Below, in pieces: positions 9,666 to 12,320 of a stretch of DNA of 38,585 nucleotides (position 1 is its first letter; every line of letters begins with the position of its first letter). This DNA is from Candidatus Pelethosoma merdigallinarum (lineage in GTDB: Bacteria; Bacillota_I; Bacilli_A; RF39; UBA660). The stretch spans positions 1-38,585 of the forward strand of contig DVKJ01000024.1 in the NCBI GenBank assembly GCA_018716065.1. Reading direction: 5' to 3'. Position numbers and translations under genes: made by a program. Below the pieces are notes generated by a model. It ran no database searches and was not told the DNA's origin. It saw only the letters and a list, made by a program, of their open reading frames with translations.

Positions 9666-12320
9666 ATGAAACTAAAAAGAAAAATCAAGAGAAAATGGGA
9701 AAATATCGGTACGAATCAAAAGATGATGATGGTATTCGTTAGTTTACTTTTCTTTATTACGGTAGGTTATGCGGCAATTAACCAAGTACTTAAAATAACG
9801 GGTTATGCAAGTCTTGATAAAGGTGACGGCATGATTTTTACCAGTGTTGGAATCAATAATAATAATCAAGCAACTATAGAGAAAGATGCCTCTATCAAAG
9901 CCAAAACATTAGTAAATACTCAAATAAGTTTTCAAAGTGCAGGATCCATAACATTTAATGTATCCGCACAAAATCAAGGAACTACAGATGCGAAGCTCAT
10001 TGAAATCAAAGGATTAGAAGAAAGTAACATCAAAGAACCCACTTGTATTCAAATATCTGTACAAGAACACAATGTAGGAGATTTAGTTTTCCCAAGTCAA
10101 ATCAAAAACTTTACGATTACCATAACGAGTACATGTTCAACTTATTCAAGTAAAGAACTAGATTTACATTTTGTCTATGAAAAACAAGAGACCATTAATG
10201 GAGTATTACCAGTACCTACTTTAGGAAGTACTACTACAGATTTATTAAATAATAGTGGTGATGGAACTTACAATTATATGGATGGAACATATTTAAAAGG
10301 AGAACAAGATTCTAATTATATTTGGTTTGATGGGTTCATGTGGCGAATCATGGGTAAAAATAGTGATGGAAGTATTCGTATGATTACCGAAGAAAATGTA
10401 ACAGGAATCCCATGGGGAGCAAGTAAGACTGCCCAAGATTATGACAATAGTTATGTGAATGATTGGTTAAATAATTATTTTTATCCAAAGTTAGAACATA
10501 AAGATTTACTTGTAAATCAAACATGGTGTAGTGAAACAACAACTTCTTCATCTTCATCAAGAACAACCTGTACTAGTAATTTATCCAGTGTACAGAAACC
10601 TATTGGTTTATTATCATTGGATGAATATAATCTGGCAAGTGGCGGTTCAAGTTATTTAGATATATCACAATATTTTTGGACAACTACGCCAAATAGTGCC
10701 TCGTATGCGTGGAGCGTGTACAACAGTGGCATTGCGGGCAACGGCTATGTGACGAATGGGCTCGGTGTTCGCCCAGTTGTAGGGATTTCCTCTGATACGA
10801 CCATTACCGGAGGTAATGGTACTCTAACAGAACCATATGTGATCGGAGAAGTAAGTGATGTCACAGGAAGTTTAAAAGATAACAGTCATGTAGGAGAATA
10901 TGTAACGTATGCAGGAAGAAATTATCGTGTAGTAGAAACATCAAATCAAGGAACAAAATTAATCTTAGATGGATATTATGATAGTAATAATGATGGAATA
11001 ATAGAAGAATCCGATAAAATGACATATGGAGAAAATTGTACATTATGTACAACCATAAATGAAGATAGCTTTGTTAATTGGATCAGTAATAATAATGAAG
11101 TAGATAAAAATAAGCTAGTTTCAACAACATGGTATCGAGGAGATAATTTTGACTATGAGGATAATTATAAAGATAATTTAGAAAGTATAAGTAACCCTTA
11201 CGTTGGAAGAGTTGGATTAATACGAGTAGGTGAAATGTTATCGGGACAAAGTGAAACCATTCTTTCAAAGAATCATACAACAAGTAATAGTTATAATAAT
11301 GCTCAACATTATTGGACAACTACGCCATATAGTGCATCGAATGCGTGGCGCGTGAGCAACTATGGCAGTGCGTACAGCCACAATGTGACGGGTGCGTACG
11401 GTGTCCGCCCAGTTATCATGATCCACCCAGGGGTTCCTATTACAGGAGGACAAGGAACACCAAATGAGCCATATACATTAGGAGAAGCTCCACTAACAGC
11501 AGCTCAATATTTAATTAAAAATAAATTAAGTAGTGATATTAATACGAGTCCAACAAATGGACTGTTTGCGATCGGAAATAGTGGCGAGTTAACGACTTCA
11601 ACTTCTCCAAGAGAATATCGATATATCGGAGCTAATCCAGATAATTACATTCAATTTAACAATGAATTATGGCGAATTATTGGAATTTTTGAAGGACAAT
11701 TAAAAATTATCAGAAAAGATTTATTAGAAAATAAAACATGGGATGATGGTGGTACTACTAATTGGAATGATAAGCCCATGCAAAAGTATTTTAATGGAGA
11801 ATATTTAGAAGGAATGGACGAATCGTCACAAAATAAAATAGCTGATTACACTTGGAAATTAGGTGGTAGTAGTACTTGGGATGATGTAACTGCTCAGATG
11901 TTTTATGAATTGGAAAGAGGGTCTTTAACTTCAACTGGAGATTCAACAGAATGGAGAGGAAAAATTGCTTTAATGTATCCAAGTGATTATGGATTTTCAA
12001 CCAGTGGAGGAAGTACAACGAATCGAAGTAGTTGTTTAGCTACAGCATTATTTAGCTGGTATAGTGCGAATGATTGTAAAAATAATAGTTGGTTATATGA
12101 TAGTTCCAATGATCAATGGACTTTAACTCCGTTTGTACTCGCACGAACACGCGCGCCTAGTATAGGAGCTCCTTTGTCATACATTCTATATAAAAGTGGA
12201 GATGTCGATCTTATGGATGAATTTTCTTCTTATAGTGCTCGTCCTACATTATATCTCCAACCTACTGTAGAAATCGCTTCCGGTATAGGAACAAGTTCTG
12301 ATCCATATATCTTAAAATAA
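9666..12320 (+). CDS. Exported repeat surface protein with two DGR-like variable regions
   Basis: This 884-aa protein has a basic N-terminus (residues 1-25) and one hydrophobic export or anchor segment (about 28-45), followed by a GYAxI...ITGYA stretch reminiscent of SipW-dependent or camelysin-like exported proteins. After a beta-rich region come three related modules, each with a [YF]xxFxxxxWRI[MI]G-like strand. Modules 1 and 2 each end in a WTTTP...AW.V...GVRPV segment (residues 338-371 and 550-583) resembling DUF6273/C-type-lectin-like targets of diversity-generating retroelements. Module 3 ends in a related but non-variable SARPTLYL segment. The two variable segments are about 56-57% G+C against AT-rich surroundings. 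The ATG at 9666 follows AGGGTG; the earlier TTG frame has no ribosome site. No reverse transcriptase lies in the window. Confidence 0.8.
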   Translation: MKLKRKIKRKWENIGTNQKMMMVFVSLLFFITVGYAAINQVLKITGYASLDKGDGMIFTSVGINNNNQATIEKDASIKAKTLVNTQISFQSAGSITFNVSAQNQGTTDAKLIEIKGLEESNIKEPTCIQISVQEHNVGDLVFPSQIKNFTITITSTCSTYSSKELDLHFVYEKQETINGVLPVPTLGSTTTDLLNNSGDGTYNYMDGTYLKGEQDSNYIWFDGFMWRIMGKNSDGSIRMITEENVTGIPWGASKTAQDYDNSYVNDWLNNYFYPKLEHKDLLVNQTWCSETTTSSSSSRTTCTSNLSSVQKPIGLLSLDEYNLASGGSSYLDISQYFWTTTPNSASYAWSVYNSGIAGNGYVTNGLGVRPVVGISSDTTITGGNGTLTEPYVIGEVSDVTGSLKDNSHVGEYVTYAGRNYRVVETSNQGTKLILDGYYDSNNDGIIEESDKMTYGENCTLCTTINEDSFVNWISNNNEVDKNKLVSTTWYRGDNFDYEDNYKDNLESISNPYVGRVGLIRVGEMLSGQSETILSKNHTTSNSYNNAQHYWTTTPYSASNAWRVSNYGSAYSHNVTGAYGVRPVIMIHPGVPITGGQGTPNEPYTLGEAPLTAAQYLIKNKLSSDINTSPTNGLFAIGNSGELTTSTSPREYRYIGANPDNYIQFNNELWRIIGIFEGQLKIIRKDLLENKTWDDGGTTNWNDKPMQKYFNGEYLEGMDESSQNKIADYTWKLGGSSTWDDVTAQMFYELERGSLTSTGDSTEWRGKIALMYPSDYGFSTSGGSTTNRSSCLATALFSWYSANDCKNNSWLYDSSNDQWTLTPFVLARTRAPSIGAPLSYILYKSGDVDLMDEFSSYSARPTLYLQPTVEIASGIGTSSDPYILK
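10677..10778 (+). repeat. DGR-like variable region VR1
   Basis: This 102-bp segment encodes residues 338-371 of the surface protein and aligns without gaps to 11313-11414. The copies share 81 of 102 bases. Differences fall almost only at codon positions 1 and 2, mostly where one copy has A. The shared end GGTGT(T/C)CGCCCAGTT is a candidate homing-initiation end. Confidence 0.65.
11313..11414 (+). repeat. DGR-like variable region VR2
   Basis: This is the second copy, encoding residues 550-583, in the same frame and of the same length as VR1. Sites that read TAC, AGC, CAC, TAT or GGT here correspond to other AAY-derived codons in VR1, as expected if both were copied from one AAC/AAT-rich template with adenine mutagenesis. 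Confidence 0.65.

Follow-up and report, generated by a model that had tools for sequence, protein, structure and literature searches.

Tandem variable regions in a lectin-like protein of a gut bacterium point to a DGR whose machinery is incomplete in the assembly

In a diversity-generating retroelement (DGR), the reverse transcriptase (RT) and Avd make a cDNA of a template RNA, inserting random bases where the template has an adenine, and the cDNA replaces a variable region (VR). Does a gene in which two domains each end in a GC-rich segment of this appearance belong to such a system, and, if so, where are its RT and template? The gene lies in a 38,585-nt stretch of Candidatus Pelethosoma merdigallinarum DNA (the window), which is contig C7 of genome G000, a 1.32-Mb assembly of 66 contigs that is 91.4% complete. 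As set out below, the two segments, VR1 and VR2, are very probably variable regions of one DGR target protein, with two lectin-like domains that have each been rewritten in the recent past of the lineage.

A tandem repeat that ends two lectin-like domains

VR1 and VR2 align without gaps at 81/102 identical positions, a count that we reproduced exact to the base. Differences between them fall mostly at codon positions 1 and 2 (19 of 21: 10 at position 1, 9 at position 2 and 2 at position 3), and recounting found an A in one of the two copies at 15 of the 21. At every other offset in the gene, in-frame pairs of 102-nt windows agree at no more than 54/102 positions, which puts the repeat far above background; its limits come out slightly wider in a repeat search, at 10668-10778 and 11304-11414. 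The GC richness ascribed to the segments is also borne out, with 56-57% GC in VR1 and VR2 compared with 35% in the whole gene. Adenine occupies 8/59 constant columns of the 79-nt core and 930/2448 positions elsewhere in the gene.

Table 1. Features of the probable DGR target gene in the window
Feature	Coordinates	Strand	Description and basis
Probable DGR target gene	9666..12320	+	884 aa from the ATG at 9666; multidomain, membrane-anchored or secreted; ORF and Pfam
Hydrophobic N-terminal segment	9723..9785	+	Putative signal or anchor, from the translation
First DUF6273 domain	10233..10850	+	Predicted C-type-lectin fold with VR1 at its end; AlphaFold2 model (pLDDT 93.9) and PDB comparison
VR1	10677..10778 (core 10698-10776)	+	Repeat and column comparison
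Second DUF6273-type domain	10854..11486	+	VR2 at its end; domain 2 profile search and paralogue alignment
VR2	11313..11414 (core 11334-11412)	+	Repeat and column comparison
Third DUF6273-like domain	11694..12320	+	Without a matching VR; DUF6273 match at 11694-11873, unmatched in VR searches

A membrane-protein gene precedes the target gene and rpsF- and ssb-like genes follow it (named from their translations). Searches of viral contigs and phage records returned none that encodes a relative of the target protein. Pfam finds DUF6273 in three stretches of the protein (E=7.7e-13), and the domain assignment made from the sequence agrees with both this match and a high-confidence structure model. 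A model of the two domains together was poor (pLDDT 50.6), and we used instead a single-domain model of the first domain built from 91 homologues (AlphaFold2), in which VR1 lies at the end of the lectin-like domain. The closest PDB match of this model is an N-terminal region of the Thomasclavelia IgA peptidase (Z 16.7). The next matches have Z scores of 6-8, a range (Z < 8) that the comparison tool itself notes as suggestive only, and one fold dominates the list: the C-terminal domain of Legionella Lcl, many C-type lectins and Treponema TvpA. TvpA of Treponema denticola is a DGR target; its structure (2y3c) shares the C-type-lectin fold with the model (Z 6.4, 4.8 A rmsd over 124 residues) but only 15% sequence identity. 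On this modelling, the VR-bearing domain is predicted to have a C-type-lectin fold.

VR-like segments on other contigs of the same genome were sorted by eye into three types. Type A, to which the VRs of the window belong, occurs in two copies each on C7 and C19, on C20 and C23, and as eroded copies on C31; type B (WTDSA or similar) on C26, C4, C21, C28 and C61; and type C (WTMSPS) on C2, C41 and internally on C20. The type-C segments resemble the template of a sister species, G002. One type-B VR, on C28 (L038:6500-6650), contains an in-frame TAG, and C61 (L036:1-300) holds the truncated remnant of a VR gene close to the contig end.

The codon-position bias dates the process. Third positions differ in 2/34 codons between VR1 and VR2, against 31% (133/425) outside the VRs between the C7 and C19 genes, which indicates that the last rewriting was recent. 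When the C7 gene is compared with its C23 paralogue, the VRs contain 19, 23 and 16 differences at codon positions 1, 2 and 3, and the sequence outside them 91, 73 and 207 (p=6e-5).

Variable columns coincide with adenines of sister-species templates

With the genome's own template missing, we asked whether the variable columns of VR1 and VR2 are the adenines of the templates of a sister species, G004. Adenines of one of these templates (G4.TR2) fall on 16/20 differing core columns as against 8/59 unchanged columns (p=9.8e-8), and those of the other (G4.TR1) on 15/20 differing columns (p=2.8e-7). The tandem gene on C19 behaves in the same way, 14/15 of its differing columns lying at adenines of either G004 template (p=2e-8 and 3.4e-9), and 13/17 differences between the type-C VRs of C41 and C2 lie at adenines of the G002 template (p=2.4e-6). 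Direct comparisons of templates with VRs inside the sister genomes are likewise adenine-biased, with p from 0.004 to 6.5e-7. This independent test supports the DGR reading of the original prediction.

The sister templates are stand-ins. Because they show 2-7 non-A differences from the VRs of their own genomes, they have drifted or are not the exact parents of those VRs, and with 13-14 non-A mismatches among 79 positions they are not direct parents of the VRs in the window. A search of the loci of relatives for a template agreeing with the window VRs at almost every non-A position yielded none that surpassed the G004 template; the remaining hits were A-rich chance matches. The parental template would read approximately GCG TGG AAC GTG AAC AAC AAT GGC AAT GCG AAC AAC AAC AAT GTG ACG AAT ACG AAC GGT GTN CGC CCA, a sequence with AAY codons. 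VR1 and VR2 would then have been rewritten from such a template by mutagenic retrohoming, if RT and Avd acted on this gene as they do in other DGRs. The gene presumably encodes a surface protein with two ligand-binding faces that would vary independently of each other.

Could the same pattern arise in ordinary paralogous lectin domains through positive selection and gene conversion, with no DGR involved? The genome does have 28 DUF6273 matches, and its assembly lacks the machinery (see below). However, the variable columns coincide with adenines of sister-species templates that are non-coding, and the VRs vary at codon positions 1 and 2 but are conserved at position 3, the opposite of the flanks. 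We rejected ordinary positive selection on the test against the sister templates, and regard the explanation as a whole as very improbable.

A complete DGR in one sister species, and related RT loci

The sister species G004 (E10__bin67, an uncultured Bacilli bacterium) has RT, Avd, templates and VRs together (C77 and C16). Its contig C77 (CALVZI010000077.1) encodes in a row a target gene with two VRs, a non-coding template, MutS_I, bAvd and the RT. The template has AAC/AAT codons and lies between the target ORF (1166-2998) and the MutS-like gene; the target has two DUF6273-type domains with a VR at the end of each. The layout of this two-domain target and the AAY-codon pattern of its VRs are those of the window; the G004 system differs in being complete, whereas the genome of the window has a truncated RT and no template or Avd that we could find.

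RTs of 371 aa, 350 aa and 333 aa occur in G002, G003 and G004, respectively. Upstream of each lies a bAvd-like gene, in turn preceded by a small gene whose product in G003 and G004 matches MutS domain I. The Avd family PF22296 is present in all three and was not found in G000; the G004 Avd matches NCBIfam DivGenRetAVD, under the curated cut-off. Both Avd and MSL (PF01624) are known DGR accessories (PMC10053308). In G001, of the same genus, we found no RT and no clear VR match.

The second G004 template (C16:5500-5732, minus strand; L217) follows a target gene with DUF6273-type domains, and the stretch read shows no RT next to it. Its 3′ flank (~150 nt) is 98% identical to that on C77 and 97% identical to a flank at a G003 contig end. 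A solo template with shared flanks suggests that templates served in trans, an activity described for the DGR of Thiohalocapsa (PMC10907252). A SipW-like signal peptidase gene (named by eye) follows the C16 template and resembles the gene after the RT on G003 contig C7.

The RT family of the sister species is a true DGR RT: in 52/79 related loci a scan detected template/VR pairs whose mismatches are confined to template adenines, often 10-20 at adenines and none elsewhere. Accessory ORFs at the related loci are Avd-like in 76/80 and MutS-like in 68/80. At one locus (L137), a single template serves both VRs of one ORF, with 7 and 11 mismatches at A and 0 and 2 at other bases, the same layout of two VRs per protein as in the window. 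A matching RT was found in 73/145 genomes of the family sample and in 62/113 good genomes. RT matches with several stop codons occur in four genomes (G048:C1, G070:C8, G096:C61 and G076:C1), and DGR RT decay seems to recur within the family.

Remnants of the machinery in the window's own genome

The original prediction held that the RT and template must lie outside the window. For the RT this is true of a truncated stub; the template and Avd were found nowhere in the assembly. Searches with the inferred template, with template flanks and with patterns detected no template or template flank in the 91.4% complete assembly, and a PF22296 search of it detected no Avd. The absence of a DGR RT or template from the complete genome had been named in advance as evidence against a DGR, and our search of a 91%-complete assembly, with no template and no intact RT, formally gives that outcome; the templates and intact RTs of the sister species outweigh it.

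The only RT match in G000 is a 134-aa frame on C54 (C54:12206-12610; L001:1444-1848), 65-67% identical to residues 208-329 of the G004 RT, with everything before replaced. It keeps YMDD; because the first catalytic region is absent, it should not work as an RT, judging from RT biochemistry. The contig of the stub is 55 kb long, and the ezrA-like and thiI-like genes on either side (named by eye) are intact. An upstream extension of this frame, through 6 stops, was rejected: it has no tblastn support and runs antisense to another open frame.

A second apparent remnant lies on C26 (C26:~1000-1172; L032:1000-1172), where a type-B target gene is followed by a leader and a template-like 5′ half, the latter fused with the 3′ end of a type-A target gene. 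As a candidate template, C26:1000-1112 was rejected because it is a fusion: its 3′ half runs into this target-gene end, which is 86% identical to the C19 gene. On a simple reading, a template recombined here with a VR downstream of it, and the intervening DNA would have been deleted. An assembly chimera or misassembly is a possible source of the fusion, but no long shared run of bases is apparent by eye at the junction.

Live system or frozen repertoire

If the VRs are products of a DGR, is that DGR still present in the cell? One answer is that recent diversification was followed by loss of the RT, Avd and templates, partly through template/VR recombination, leaving the VRs frozen. Consistent with this are the truncated RT on a long contig with intact neighbours, the Avd and template not found in the assembly, the resemblance of C26 to a template 5′ half fused to a type-A target 3′ end, the stop-containing type-B VR on C28 and the truncated remnant on C61, and degraded or stop-containing RT matches in further members of the family. 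Against it stand the near-identity of third positions in VR1 and VR2, which makes the rewriting recent, and the incompleteness of the assembly. DGR loci are easily lost in assembly, as the sister species show: their RT contigs are short or break off within a template (the RT contig of G002 is 3.1 kb, and G003:C77 ends within its template). We put loss of the machinery a little short of an even chance.

The other answer is that the cell still has an intact system whose RT/template contig went unassembled or unbinned, with the C54 stub an old second copy. The breaks of sister assemblies at templates and RTs and the frequency of the matching RT among good genomes of the family fit this answer, as do the near lack of non-A changes both between VR1 and VR2 and between the two C19 VRs, and the presence side by side of three VR types with AAY patterns. 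It would, however, require three template families to be absent from the assembly simultaneously, C26 looks like a genuine scar, and a whole template core was found nowhere in the assembly. We give an intact system an even chance; the two readings are near even.

The full version of the first answer is a gut bacterium that retains some twelve lectin variants, made by a DGR from three or more template families, its machinery lost, at one locus by template/VR recombination. We consider this combination possible but lean towards doubting it; if true, it would show, in nature, a repertoire that was first diversified and then fixed.

Relation to known systems

Two variable domains in tandem had been thought unusual, a view that does not hold: tandem VRs have been described (PMC3521204, PMC6642488, PMC10907252) and are frequent in this genus. 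A Marichromatium target ORF has three tandem FGE-sulfatase paralogues (PMC3521204); tandem VRs in one ORF account for 31 of 271 multi-VR DGRs, and a target of Pseudomonas costantinii has several VRs in one ORF (PMC6642488); Thiohalocapsa PB-PSB1 has tandem VRs in a single target, with incomplete loci that are diversified in trans or possibly orphaned (PMC10907252). These systems share with the window gene the tandem VRs within one target protein and differ in belonging to other lineages and, for Marichromatium, in the FGE-sulfatase nature of the ORF. Degradation in PB-PSB1 is tied to transposons and MITE-like repeats, whereas the genome of the window has an apparent template/VR fusion. DUF6273 targets are known from Faecalibacterium prophages, with the VR at the DUF6273 C-terminus (PMC11792537) as in the window protein; those are phage proteins, whereas the window gene has a housekeeping neighbourhood and two VRs per protein.

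Tandem VRs, DUF6273 targets and incomplete DGR loci are thus each known already, and what the window system adds is an instructive state of decay. The genus spans a complete system (G004), RT cassettes (G002 and G003), an RT remnant only (G000) and neither RT nor clear VRs (G001), so that close species can be compared for the gain and loss of a DGR and for possible trans-acting templates. Chromosomal DGRs with tandem DUF6273 lectin targets in uncultured gut Bacilli are also a rich source of hypervariable surface binding proteins.

Two minor observations concern other arrangements of VRs. At two related loci, L200 and L202, a single template matches VRs of two different target genes within the locus, on opposite strands in L202. 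The third DUF6273-like domain of the window protein and its paralogues diverge at the VR position (window:12100-12260; L030:6400-6600; L030:11200-11600), and in the C23 paralogue GCG, AGC and TAC codons are abundant there, perhaps marking a fourth, eroded VR type.
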